Shown here in pieces: positions 13,450 to 28,094 of a stretch of 52,533 nucleotides of DNA (its first letter is position 1; each line of letters begins with the position of its first letter). The notes under the pieces were generated by a model. The model was not told the DNA's origin. It ran no database searches and was given only the letters and a program-made list of their open reading frames with translations. The stretch is taken from positions 1-52,533 of IMG/VR virus record IMGVR_UViG_3300014932_000216. The stretch is one strand, 5' to 3'. Made by a program: the position numbers and the translations under genes. The stretch comes from a virus.

Positions 13450-13980
13450 CTATTCGGTAAGGTTTAGCGATTTACCGAAAGTCATATCTCGGCACAGTAT
13501 GTATTTTGCGCGGTAGCAGTGATTCGGGGATAGTCCCGCATATGGGTCTATTTGGATGAAGTTATTGCGCTGCCACAAAAGCATATCACTATCATCATCG
13601 AAAATCACGTATTCTTTAAAGTCACTGCCAGTTGATACGCCTAACATTTCAGTATGTTGCTGAATCCACAGATAAATTTCATTTCCCCTTAAAGCCCCTT
13701 CATAATGCAATATGGGTGTATATGCAATTATCTCCCCAATGAATCCTTTCTTTTCTAACAATGACTGCATGTATGGCATTGTATTACCCATACGCCATGT
13801 GGAACTTAAAACAACTTTTGCACCCGTTTCCTCTATTAATGAGTTAAGAAAGATAATTGATTCACTGTCTAGTTGATGTAAGTGATAATCTTCCTTGGAG
13901 TCACCTTCATTATTTCCCCTATTTGTATAAAACAGTTGGCTATTGAGAACACCATCTATATCAAGGAAGATTATTTTCAT
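13450..13980 (-). CDS. HAD-family phosphatase of the RNA-repair (Swiss Army Knife) type
   Basis: A 176-residue protein. Motif I is FLDIDGVLN (Asp7 and Asp9), motif II is VVLSSTWRMG (about residues 55-64), and an acidic IFDDDSDM (about 125-132) follows. This spacing, with DIDGVL and SSTWR, is typical of HAD domains linked to polynucleotide or RNA repair and of small phage HAD phosphatases. The reaction would be removal of a phosphate, for example a 3' phosphate on RNA ends. An RNA ligase lies 3.4 kb upstream. No polynucleotide kinase domain is seen. The exact substrate is inferred. Confidence 0.7.
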   Translation of the reverse strand: MKIIFLDIDGVLNSQLFYTNRGNNEGDSKEDYHLHQLDSESIIFLNSLIEETGAKVVLSSTWRMGNTMPYMQSLLEKKGFIGEIIAYTPILHYEGALRGNEIYLWIQQHTEMLGVSTGSDFKEYVIFDDDSDMLLWQRNNFIQIDPYAGLSPNHCYRAKYILCRDMTFGKSLNLTE

Positions 13981-16542: not shown

Positions 16543-16959
16543 CTACCCGCAGTTTATTTCTATTTCCAGATCGTGCAATTCCTTTATTATACTCCAGCTA
16601 AATGAATTTTGGTGGTGGTACCCATCGCTGTCTTTTGTTTGGGACTCAACCGAAAAAGGATCGCAGGCAAAGAGACGGCAGTCGCCCATATTGTTCTTTA
16701 TTTTCAAAACCTTAGCGACATAATCTAGGTCCTTTATGTTATGCAAAAGTCCGTGACAATCTTCGCACACTGTTTTTAGCGCGCGGTTTGGAGCATCCCA
16801 TGGTTCGCCAGTGTATTTCTCATGGTGTACATGTAGCTGAGATTTATCATCCCCGCATAAGGTACATTTCCATTGATCTCTGTTGAGAATTTCTAATCTG
16901 CGCTTTTGCCAGCGCACGTCTTTGAGTTTGTCCGAATAGGACTGGTTTTGATTAAGCAT
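16543..16959 (-). CDS. HNH endonuclease
   Basis: A 138-residue HNH nuclease beginning MLNQNQSYSDKLKDVRWQKR, the common start of this family. Zinc ligands are CTLC and CEDC, the HNH core is LHVHHEKY ... LKTVCEDCHGLLH, and a C-terminal tail follows. The family start supports 16959 over the longer 17010 start. The ATG lies directly after AATCCGCGAAAT, the third copy of a sequence that can base-pair within the structured leader upstream (see 16961-17139). Role unknown: selfish nuclease or packaging-type HNH. It is the first gene of the unit leading to the initiator and DnaB. Confidence 0.8.
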   Translation of the reverse strand: MLNQNQSYSDKLKDVRWQKRRLEILNRDQWKCTLCGDDKSQLHVHHEKYTGEPWDAPNRALKTVCEDCHGLLHNIKDLDYVAKVLKIKNNMGDCRLFACDPFSVESQTKDSDGYHHQNSFSWSIIKELHDLEIEINCG

Positions 16960-16960
16960 A

Positions 16961-17139
16961 TTTCGCGGATTTTTGATTGTGAAAGAAAGGAAACTGAAAT
17001 GTATGGACACGCCGGTAGGGTGCCAGAATCCGCGAAGAAACTAACAACCCCGTGCAGGGCGACCCTAACCGACTTATCTTGAGTGATATTTGTTTGCAAT
17101 TGGCACGGAATTGAGATTGTTTGAATTTCGCGGATTCGA
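16961..17139 (-). ncRNA. Candidate structured regulatory leader RNA with alternative pairing
   Basis: Minus strand, 5' to 3': arm A GAATCCGCGAA (17137-17127); a small hairpin CAATT/AATTG with loop CCGTGCC (about 17113-17097); B GTCGGTTAGGGT (17073-17062); a CCC/GGG hairpin (17059-17048); A' TTCGCGGATTC (17036-17026), the perfect complement of A; D/E TGGCACCCTACCGGC (17025-17011), complementary to GTGCCA (17106-17101) and to B; and A'' AATCCGCGAA (16971-16962), next to the HNH start. A' can pair with A or with A'', while E-B forms a pseudoknot. The B-E helix has a U-G pair on the minus strand that would be a C-A mismatch on the plus strand. No known RNA family recognised. Confidence 0.6.
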
Positions 17140-17142
17140 CCC

Positions 17143-17174
17143 CGAAGATACGAAAACAATAGCTTTCAGCCAAA
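17143..17174 (-). promoter_or_regulatory. Bacteroidetes-type promoter before the structured leader
   Basis: On the minus strand TTTG (17174-17171) is followed after 20 bases by TATCTTCG (17150-17143), which matches the -7 consensus TAnnTTTG at all but one position. The expected start of transcription is near 17137-17139, exactly at arm A of the structured leader. Confidence 0.6.
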
Positions 17175-17268
17175 AAAATGTTAACCATAATCTAAAGAAT
17201 TTTGTTACCTTTATTTCTCCCGAATATTGGCACAAAAGTTGTTTAGGCTATTGTACCTTTTAATCAAT

Positions 17269-17310
17269 AGCTCTGGTAGGACTGCAATCCAATAATCCAG
17301 AGCTTTTTTT
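17269..17310 (+). terminator. Intrinsic terminator on the plus strand
   Basis: AGCTCTGG (17269-17276) and CCAGAGCT (17297-17304) form an 8-bp stem, followed by TTTTTT. On the minus strand the stem is followed by ATTGATTAA, so the signal is plus-strand. No plus-strand gene is seen upstream, which suggests a short untranslated plus transcript or a barrier to antisense transcription of the RNA ligase. Confidence 0.6.
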
Positions 17311-17348: not shown

Positions 17349-18365
17349 TTATGCTTCTTTTAAAAGAAATTTATTGCTTATCACCTTAAAGGAAATATTC
17401 CGGTTGTGACTGCGAATTACAAGCCCTTCACGCTCCGTATTTTGATTTATAATACTCTTCCCTTCCGCAGATGCAATAAGTGTCTCTATTGTGTCGGGAA
17501 GCGAATAGGATTCAAAAAGGAATGGCACACTATCGAGGCAAAGTATATTTAACAGGGCGCGGAAGTTTTCATAATCCAGGTACTCTTGTTTATCTATGTT
17601 GTAGGCGTTGAAAAATCTAACGCTATGCCCCTTTATTTTATAAGGGTTGCCTTGTATTCCTTCGCCTATAAGCTCACCTTGCAGGGCGTAATTTCCTAGG
17701 CTAGAAAGTTTAGTTTCTAAATCTAGGTCCCGCGCCATCTTCCAAAAAGTATTATCAGGCGTTTCGATCAGGTCAATATTCCGGCTGCAAACTCCAAAAA
17801 AATTATTATTGTTGTAGAATGTCGCGCTGCTGCCGTCCAGCTTTTCAGTAACATAAAATGTATTGGTCTTAAAATTTTCATAAACTGGCGAAAGGTTTTG
17901 TATTCTCTCTTCGTCTGTTTTTGGTATAAATAAGGGGAATGAACTGCGCATAATTCCGGCAAGCTGCGCCGGTATAGGCATTTCATATTTCCACACCCCG
18001 AGCGTTTCGGTAATATCATCACCAACCTGCAAAGTGTTGTAAACGCCGTTATCTATCAAACCTTTCAGGTAAGACAATGGAAGTATCAACCCTTGTGACA
18101 CCTGCCCGCGCAATTTTATTGTTTTCAGTCGGAATCCTTCTTTGCCATTCATTTTCTTGAATGAGGATTTGCGGAGAAATTCAAATTCCTCGCGGACTGG
18201 TAAAAGGCTGTCTATTTCAAAATAAATAGCCTTGTCGCCTATTTTAAATTCACCTTTTTTGACTACCAATTTCCATGCGTTTATGGTAGCCACTTCGATA
18301 AGGTCTGCGCCCTCTATCGGTTGTAGGTCTGCAACGACCTGAATTGATGCTAATTTTCTTTCCAT
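17349..18365 (-). CDS. RNA ligase (ATP), DRB0094/Rnl5 type
   Basis: A 338-residue ATP-dependent RNA ligase. The N-terminal module (MERKLASIQVVADLQPIEGA ... GDKAIYFEIDSLLPV) is the OB-like domain of the DRB0094 family. The nucleotidyltransferase motif I is TEKLDGSS with the lysine nucleophile at about residue 175, GELIGEGIQGN (about 230) is motif III, and EGLVIRS and FKVISNKFLLK are motifs IV and V. It seals nicked RNA by a ligase-adenylate intermediate. Length matches the family. Together with the HAD phosphatase it suggests RNA or tRNA repair against host nucleases. Confidence 0.9.
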   Translation of the reverse strand: MERKLASIQVVADLQPIEGADLIEVATINAWKLVVKKGEFKIGDKAIYFEIDSLLPVREEFEFLRKSSFKKMNGKEGFRLKTIKLRGQVSQGLILPLSYLKGLIDNGVYNTLQVGDDITETLGVWKYEMPIPAQLAGIMRSSFPLFIPKTDEERIQNLSPVYENFKTNTFYVTEKLDGSSATFYNNNNFFGVCSRNIDLIETPDNTFWKMARDLDLETKLSSLGNYALQGELIGEGIQGNPYKIKGHSVRFFNAYNIDKQEYLDYENFRALLNILCLDSVPFLFESYSLPDTIETLIASAEGKSIINQNTEREGLVIRSHNRNISFKVISNKFLLKEA

Positions 18366-26516: not shown

Positions 26517-27680
26517 ATGAAACTACCTACCGTAAAAAACGTGCTTCGTAAGAAATTCAAGGGGGACAAAGAGGGTTATCTTTTCCTTCGTGTTGGTATG
26601 CCTGGTAATAAGATTCCAAAATTCAGGTCGTACAACTACAAGATTCCGGCGGCGCAATGGGACGAAGTGAGCGAGGTTGTAAAAAAGCCTCATATTGATG
26701 CTGGCCAGATAAATGCGGAGATAAGTGCGGAGAAAGACCGCATAGCTGATTTACTTAAATCGGAAGCCCGTAAAGGAACGACAATAACCAGTGATTATAT
26801 AGATGCCGTTCTTAACCCATCGGCCTCGCACGGGTCGTTCCTGCGATTCTACGATAGCTTTATTGAATTGCAGCGCACGAGGCATAGTAAAGGATATGCC
26901 GACCATCTGCTTATTGAGTATAACGGTGTAAAGCGATTTGCCGGGAATAACTTGCAGTTTGAGGACATTACCAGCGATTTCCTAGAGCGGTACGAAATGA
27001 GCCTTGCAAGCGGCAAAAAAAAGATTGCAGGCACCACCTTACATATCAAGATGAAGCGATTAAAAGAAGTTATTGCAAAGGCTGTTGATCGCGGGCATAT
27101 CGAAAAGAAAAAAGTAGCCGGGTATAAATACCCACCATATCCTGAGCCGGAGACGTTTTATTTGACGCTGGAGCAAGCGGATAAGATTTTCAACAATCTA
27201 AAGTCGGGTATTTATGACTATGACAGCAATGTAAGGTCGGTTGTTGCTTTCTTTCTGGTGGAATGCTTCTCAGGGATCCGGTTTAGTGACTGGAAACGAT
27301 TTGAGATTGAAAAGCTACTGCATGATGACAATTTGAAGGTAAGGGCAAAAAAGAACGGGGAGCCTGTTTACTTACCGCTAAGGGTATTTAAAAGGCTTGG
27401 GGCTATCATTGACTATATATCGGCAAACAAGGTCGCGTTTGACCTAGAGGAACAAAGTACGAACAGGATATTAAAATCTATAGGGCATGATTTGAAATTA
27501 AAGTTCCCGCTAACAACCCATGTGGGCCGGAGAACATGCGGGACTATGCTTGGTGAGCTCGGCTACTCTACGAGGGCGATTGCCGAGGTGTTGGGCATTA
27601 CAGAAATGACGGCAAAAAGATACGTGAAGCAGACCCGCCAGTCGTTAAATAATGAGTTTGAAAAGTTCGGCGGTATATAG
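26517..27680 (+). CDS. int: Tyrosine recombinase / phage integrase
   Basis: A 387-residue integrase. The N-terminal SAM-like arm-binding domain (about 90-180) is followed by the catalytic domain: Arg in CFSGIRFSDW, Lys in VRAKKNGEPVYLPL, HxxR in THVGRRTCGT, and the tyrosine nucleophile in AKRYVKQ. At the position where most members have His (LGHxxxxxT), this protein has LGITEMT, so the H/W residue appears replaced. It catalyses integration and excision at attP 27901-27940. The start codon follows the integrase leader AAGCAACGGCAAGACACC. Confidence 0.9.
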   Translation: MKLPTVKNVLRKKFKGDKEGYLFLRVGMPGNKIPKFRSYNYKIPAAQWDEVSEVVKKPHIDAGQINAEISAEKDRIADLLKSEARKGTTITSDYIDAVLNPSASHGSFLRFYDSFIELQRTRHSKGYADHLLIEYNGVKRFAGNNLQFEDITSDFLERYEMSLASGKKKIAGTTLHIKMKRLKEVIAKAVDRGHIEKKKVAGYKYPPYPEPETFYLTLEQADKIFNNLKSGIYDYDSNVRSVVAFFLVECFSGIRFSDWKRFEIEKLLHDDNLKVRAKKNGEPVYLPLRVFKRLGAIIDYISANKVAFDLEEQSTNRILKSIGHDLKLKFPLTTHVGRRTCGTMLGELGYSTRAIAEVLGITEMTAKRYVKQTRQSLNNEFEKFGGI

Positions 27681-27722
27681 GCCGGCTCGATGCCGCTATG
27701 GCGTTGTGGGAGAAATAAAAAA

Positions 27723-27743
27723 GCCCCCATTTACGAAGGGGGC
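27723..27743 (-). terminator. Intrinsic terminator on the minus strand near attP
   Basis: GCCCCC and GGGGGC with a 9-base loop. On the minus strand the stem is followed by TTTTTTATTT. After integration it would lie about 160 bases downstream of the rebuilt tmRNA gene and would stop antisense transcription into the integrase gene. Confidence 0.7.
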
Positions 27744-27876
27744 AAGTTTCGTTAGGCGGCGATACTCACAGAGTACCGAGGCGTAAAGGCAATAGTTCTG
27801 CCGTTTATTGTTACATCTCCTCTTCTTCCCATCCCTTGCTGTCAAAACCAGTCGGCCCCGGTAATTTATCTATAAG

Positions 27877-27896
27877 GCGATGTTCTTACTCATCGC
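27877..27896 (-). terminator. Small hairpin just downstream of the tmRNA-like 3' end
   Basis: GCGATG and CATCGC with an 8-base loop, starting four bases after the CCA-like end on the minus strand. It may act as a terminator or processing signal for the rebuilt tmRNA, but the following sequence is not U-rich. Confidence 0.4.
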
Positions 27897-27900
27897 TTTG

Positions 27901-27940
27901 TGGAGCCGGTGGGAGTCGAACCCACGTCCAAACAAGTTTT
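27901..27940 (-). other. attP core: 3' end of a tmRNA (ssrA) gene
   Basis: The minus strand reads GTTTGGACGTGGG, TTCGACT, CCCAC, CGGCTCC, A: a T-arm (GTGGG/CCCAC, TTCGA loop) and acceptor strand with U70, the base that forms the G-U pair recognised by alanyl-tRNA synthetase. The preceding TTTGGAC is typical of tmRNA. Only the 3' portion is present, next to the integrase, which fits a phage attachment site copying the end of the host gene. It could also be a tRNA-Ala fragment, but the TTTGGAC context favours tmRNA. Confidence 0.7.
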
Positions 27941-28094
27941 CAAAAAGCGTCAACGGTTATGCTTTGTAAAGATAGTGGTTTTATAGATTTACCATTTCAA
28001 TTTAATTCGTTAGTTGTTTGCCGATTCATTTAAAATACCATTGATGCGCCGAAGCTGATCGAGGCCTTATTTCCGTCCTTTACCTGTTCTGTGT

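Follow-up and report, generated by a model that had tools for sequence, protein, structure and literature searches.

Structure of the leader before the HNH gene

The window, as we call the whole stretch of 52,533 nucleotides of viral DNA analysed here, carries on its minus strand an HNH endonuclease gene preceded by three matching sequence arms and a promoter-like sequence, which raises the question of whether the message begins with an RNA that controls translation of the nuclease. We judge it somewhat probable that it does, i.e., that a cis-acting leader RNA controls HNH translation, with one arm, A', being shared by two others, A and A''. The structure of this leader is well supported, and the leader is most likely a translational switch of the attenuator/pseudoknot kind. 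Reading of the sequence places the promoter, A, A', A'' and the ATG at 16959 exactly where the initial annotation had put them, and also yields a candidate upstream ORF. The features are as follows (L016 is a diverged phage, described below; P2 and S are the inner helix and the crossing helix).

17174-17143, minus strand: predicted -33/-7 promoter, TTTG-N20-TATCTTCG (TTTG element, 17174-17171; TATCTTCG element, 17150-17143), with the same spacing in L016
17137-17127, minus strand: arm A, GAATCCGCGAA, putative 5' end of the transcript; identical in L016
17112-17103, minus strand: 5' strand of P2 in the MFE fold, AATTCCGTGC; P2 is rebuilt with other bases in L016
17106-17074, minus strand: weak candidate upstream ORF, GTG start, 10 codons, with its stop just 5' of helix S
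17073-17062, minus strand: 5' strand of S, GTCGGTTAGGGT; compensated in L016
17055-17046, minus strand: 3' strand of P2 in the MFE fold, GCACGGGGTT
17036-17026, minus strand: arm A', perfect complement of A, able to pair with A or A''; identical in L016
17021-17011, minus strand: 3' strand of S, ACCCTACCGGC; compensated in L016
16971-16962, minus strand: arm A'', AATCCGCGAA, directly 5' of the HNH start codon; kept in L016
16543-16959, minus strand: HNH endonuclease gene, 138 aa, ATG at 16959 (phrog_119, E 5.7e-12); the start position agrees with that of its relatives

A'' equals A over 10 bases, and exact copies of TTTCGCGGATT occur in the window in A and A'' only, A' carrying TTTCGCGGATT with one mismatch. 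The claim that A' perfectly complements A and could pair with either A or A'' holds in the window. Helix S, in which one U is bulged, crosses the A:A' pairing, and the result is a pseudoknot. The fold of the minus-strand leader has a z score of -3.0 and was equalled by 1 of 200 shuffles, whereas the plus-strand fold of the same region is unexceptional (z = -1.5), in agreement with the assignment of the RNA to the minus strand. No Rfam covariance model matched the leader at its gathering score, and a threshold of E 10 added one chance match only, consistent with the initial annotation, which could assign the RNA to no known riboswitch class.

Conservation in a diverged phage

Direct relatives were sought in viral contigs by an exact-arm (two-arm) pattern, which returned only a contig near-identical to the window and one diverged phage, L016. 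The promoter (TTTG-N20-TACATTCG), all three arms and the HNH start are retained in this phage. Promoter and leader together are 68.6% identical between the window and L016 (shuffles: mean 47%, maximum 52%), whereas the HNH gene is 47.6% identical (shuffles up to 49.5%) and the upstream DNA and the next gene are at shuffle level. Since the promoter and leader alone stand above the shuffles, the leader is the conserved object. The window leader itself is represented by two distinct sequences only. A looser three-arm pattern gave 65 further stretches in viral contigs, mostly GC-rich coding DNA, which we read as chance matches; 23 matches came from genome contigs, several of them Bacteroidota palindromic repeats and none a homologue; and DNA searches of phage and plasmid collections gave no match.

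Read from the alignment, the window has CGGU(U)AGGGU/ACCCUACCG as helix S where L016 has GGCUGGGGU/ACCCCAGCC, and for the inner helix P2 the strands are CCGUGC/GCACGG in the window and CCCCA/UGGGG in L016; both helices are rebuilt by compensating changes. The covariation in homologues that had been proposed as a check on the leader is thus seen for S and P2, whereas A and A' give none because they are invariant between the two phages. The pseudoknot had originally been drawn with two segments pairing across A'. One of them, the crossing helix S, is present and compensated in L016, but the GTGCCA/TGGCAC pair is missing there, and its bases in the window also fit P2, whose place in L016 holds another helix.

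The same repeats could act as DNA rather than as RNA arms, being operators bound by a phage repressor or by the HNH protein, as A and A'' are direct repeats with A' as an inverted copy around the promoter, and the arm sequence is invariant between the window and L016. However, S and P2, which do not contain the arm sequence, are rebuilt by compensating changes, the fold is exceptional on the minus strand alone, and, in the related leaders described below, a loop-loop helix co-varies fully and the arms differ between loci, all of which makes operators improbable in our view. An overlapping coding sequence might also account for the conservation, given that one frame is open through the leader in both the window and L016. 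This frame is broken between the two by indels of 2, 1, 2, 1 and 15 bases, so protein coding does not explain the conservation of the leader, and the frame relation to HNH also differs between them; the coding explanation is largely refuted by the frame-breaking indels, and we regard it as extremely unlikely.

A wider class of HNH-gene leaders

Viral contigs were searched for relatives of the HNH protein, which yielded 134 non-redundant upstream regions, and 43 Bacteroidota-type promoter matches lying 80-200 nt upstream of the HNH start were compared with 572 other promoter matches from the same loci. In each case, complementarity to the pre-start region was scored for the initial ~35 nt of the transcript, with a threshold of 17. 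Complementarity between the 5' segment and the pre-start region was found in 84% of the 43 HNH leaders versus 10% of the 572 controls, with a Mann-Whitney P of 8.5e-18 that is indicative only, because the set includes related members, examples had been seen before the test was devised, and the searched region was up to 110 nt versus 75 nt in the controls.

In a short subfamily, A7 (11 alignable sequences), the first and the last hairpin are joined by pairing of their loops, that of the first being 7 bases long. This loop-loop helix of 7 pairs is 100% paired, with 5 of the 7 pairs changed on both sides, and the whole structure has a covariation score of 0.484 versus 0.163 in shuffles, slid versions being 33-50% paired. 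A model built from A7 (R1) gave 16 matches among 75 sources and matched neither the window nor L016, so the window shares with the short subfamily its architecture, not its sequence. Against 396 Bacteroidota genomes, R1 gave no match, and the HNH family is present in only 4 of these genomes; among isolate phages, a recognisable HNH relative was found in two only, with no such leader evident before either. Helix sequence differs completely among leaders of this design, so a ligand-binding riboswitch is not suggested; no ligand core is visible, and the data give no support to a metabolite riboswitch.

In the short subfamily, U-rich sequence fills the space between the last hairpin and the start codon, in the manner of an intrinsic terminator, as would be expected if the RNA were a separate small RNA, or a transcription attenuator, that ends before HNH, the gene being read by leakage. 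In the window and L016, by contrast, the hairpin is followed by GCGTGTCCATAC or GCGCGTCCATAC, with no U run, and conservation continues to the start codon. We therefore attach very little weight to this explanation.

The same leader design also stands before apparently non-HNH genes (L150:142-270, L196:778-930 and L124:353-500), so the class may reach beyond HNH to other phage genes; by inspection, the gene downstream of the L150 leader appears to be RecT-like. In the window, profile matches confirm the annotated succession after the leader, i.e., HNH, a replication initiator (phrog_16167, E 4e-44) and DnaB (PF03796, E 2.9e-60). The idea that the RNA gates replication functions fares less well than this gene order, as the leader class goes with HNH genes rather more than with genes of replication. 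The leaders of this design are absent from RNA databases and appear to be a previously undescribed type of switch for phage gene expression.

Before another HNH gene of the family, at L184:2413-2477, a match to int-alpA RNA (RF02996) ends ~20 nt upstream of the gene; this is a different structured RNA at the same position as the leader.

Alternative pairing at the start codon

In nested folding of the window leader with A available, A:A' has 10.8 expected pairs, A'' is mostly unpaired and the start is mostly open; when A is blocked, or the first 16 nt are removed, A'' pairs with A'. The earlier proposal that A:A' leaves the start free and that A':A'' hides it is upheld by this folding, and the pairing choice of A' would decide whether the HNH start of the window is open. 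The duplex energies are close, with A:A' the more stable (-18.0 vs. -15.8 kcal/mol).

The occurrence of A'' elsewhere was assessed from the complementarity of A' to the 21 bases ending in the start codon in 29 leaders. The scores are bimodal: 7 of the 29 leaders (those of the window, L016, L168, L173, L189, L191 and L258) score 15-25 and the remaining ones at most 10, while mispaired controls reach 15 in 0.8% of cases. By inspection, L130 is an eighth A'' leader. Since most leaders of the class are without A'', hiding of the start by A'' is no general rule, and the sign of control may differ between leaders with and without it. The HNH tree is too poorly resolved to tell the number of A'' origins. 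Upon blocking A, capture of A' by A'' was absent in L016 and the six other A'' leaders under nested folding, by which their pseudoknots are not computable; A' there occupies the loop of a strong hairpin and either pairing would be a pseudoknot, so nested folding cannot judge the switch in these leaders. Among the eight A'' leaders, the stronger duplex is A:A' in four and A' with the start in the other four, and this equal frequency points to a near-balanced competition.

A fixed structured leader without switching has also to be weighed, in which A:A' and S would stabilise the message or set a constant low HNH level, with A'' being incidental or duplicating ribosome-binding context. It would accord with the recurrence of the structure in many leaders without A'' and with A:A' as the more stable pairing in the window. 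However, eight leaders whose arm sequences differ have A'' at the start codon, well beyond the rate in the mispaired controls, and L016 has kept it, and we consider a fixed leader unlikely, although it deserves serious attention.

Proposed mechanism and the upstream ORF

In the translational switch that we favour, transcription would start at the -33/-7 promoter, as its conservation suggests, so that A would sit at the 5' end of the message. A would pair with A' within the loop of hairpin S, forming the pseudoknot to which the comparative evidence points, and A' could switch to A'' at the HNH start codon. With A holding A', the start would be largely single-stranded and HNH translatable; with A occupied or lost, A' would cover the HNH start. 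Both states are predicted by folding in the window and would apply by extension elsewhere, and we infer the switching, its direction and its trigger.

What naturally competes for A is probably a ribosome that initiates on an upstream ORF, because A in this class usually abuts or overlaps the start codon of such a short ORF. An ATG touches or closely follows A in 23 of 36 leaders versus 9.9 expected, a count inflated by related short leaders, and an early ATG is found in 16 of 18 long leaders versus 9.7 expected. Several upstream ORFs, such as those of L168, L166 and L127, run as far as the main start or close to it. The window leader has no ATG upstream ORF; at a place comparable to its GTG candidate, L016 has an ATG ORF of 12 codons. 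The leader would couple HNH output to translation of the upstream ORF, much as translational attenuators and the pseudoknot-coupled leaders of plasmid initiator genes do, and, by analogy with T4-like phages, might serve in the timing or dosage of a potentially harmful nuclease.

More broadly, and with less than even confidence, we suggest that an undescribed class of leader RNA is widespread among phages whose promoters are of the Bacteroidota type. In these RNAs a single hairpin loop would be contested by two partners, the start site of a phage gene and the message's 5' end, the latter doubling as the region where translation of a tiny upstream ORF is initiated. Such a leader would sense ribosome loading and time HNH genes as well as some recombination and replication genes.

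Comparison with known leader RNAs

Structured RNAs upstream of HNH-encoding genes include the HEARO/OMEGA RNAs of IscB, which is a large RuvC-HNH protein. In contrast, the protein of the window has 138 aa and an HNH domain only, and the Rfam HEARO model gave no match. In the repZ/repA leaders of plasmids, a loop pairs with a distant segment beside the start of the main gene, with coupling to a leader peptide. Formation of this pseudoknot turns expression on, and an antisense RNA vies for the same loop. With these leaders the window leader shares a pseudoknot near the main start, formed by A:A' with the crossing helix S that is compensated between the window and L016, but A:A' lies at the 5' end of the message, unlike in repZ/repA. 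Pseudoknot-dependent leaders of this kind, from ColIb-P9 and IncL/M, appear in titles cited in PMC10724649.

In T4-like phages, homing endonuclease genes (I-TevI, segB and mobE) are restrained by RNA structure (PMC2988022). The window leader resembles them in that leader structure would govern the start of a phage nuclease gene and a promoter lies nearby. It differs in two respects. First, the T4-like type has an inner late promoter that yields a transcript too short to contain the inhibitory structure (PMC2988022), whereas the window promoter at 17174-17143 precedes A and the whole structure, so the promoter placement that defines the type is not found here. Second, no pseudoknot or third arm has been described for the T4-like type (PMC2988022), unlike the window leader. 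As in a T4-type leader, the nuclease start is predicted to be hidden by structure, in the window only, through A':A'' when A is blocked.

Translational attenuators with a leader ORF, such as ermC and Bacteroides tetQ (PMC5418344), combine a short leader ORF with alternative pairings that hide or free the main start, and mutually exclusive pairings, one hiding the main start, are also predicted by folding in the window. However, ermC and tetQ respond to ribosome-stalling drugs and use hairpins, whereas the window leader pairs by a pseudoknot and its upstream ORF is weak. No description of a leader such as that of the window was found in the papers searched, and the main text of two large RNA surveys makes no mention of HNH.

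Few studies address post-transcriptional control in Bacteroidota phages. A leader architecture that recurs, has no Rfam counterpart, stands before a common selfish endonuclease family and has strong compensatory evidence in one subfamily would offer a testable mechanism for timing such genes or keeping them harmless, and would provide a compact natural switch design.

Other RNA-related features of the locus

On the plus strand, at 17266-17307 between the RNA ligase gene and the leader promoter, a hairpin (AATAGCTCTGG/CCAGAGCTTTT) with a T run looks like an intrinsic terminator, to judge from its sequence; none of the plus-strand genes has its end at this point. The replication genes lie between two minus-strand genes (13450-13980 and 17349-18365), for the RNA ligase and for an HAD phosphatase of the 'Swiss Army Knife RNA repair' type, and this arrangement suggests an RNA repair set. 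Further away, ARAGORN and Rfam (RF04321, 56.1 bits) agree in predicting a permuted, two-piece tmRNA at 27661-27990 on the minus strand of the window, where it shares sequence with a phage integrase gene (26517-27680) at the 3' end of that gene. Such a tmRNA is also predicted in L113 (L113:1940-2210), the contig of a phage whose HNH gene is related, and phage-borne permuted tmRNAs are perhaps worth attention.
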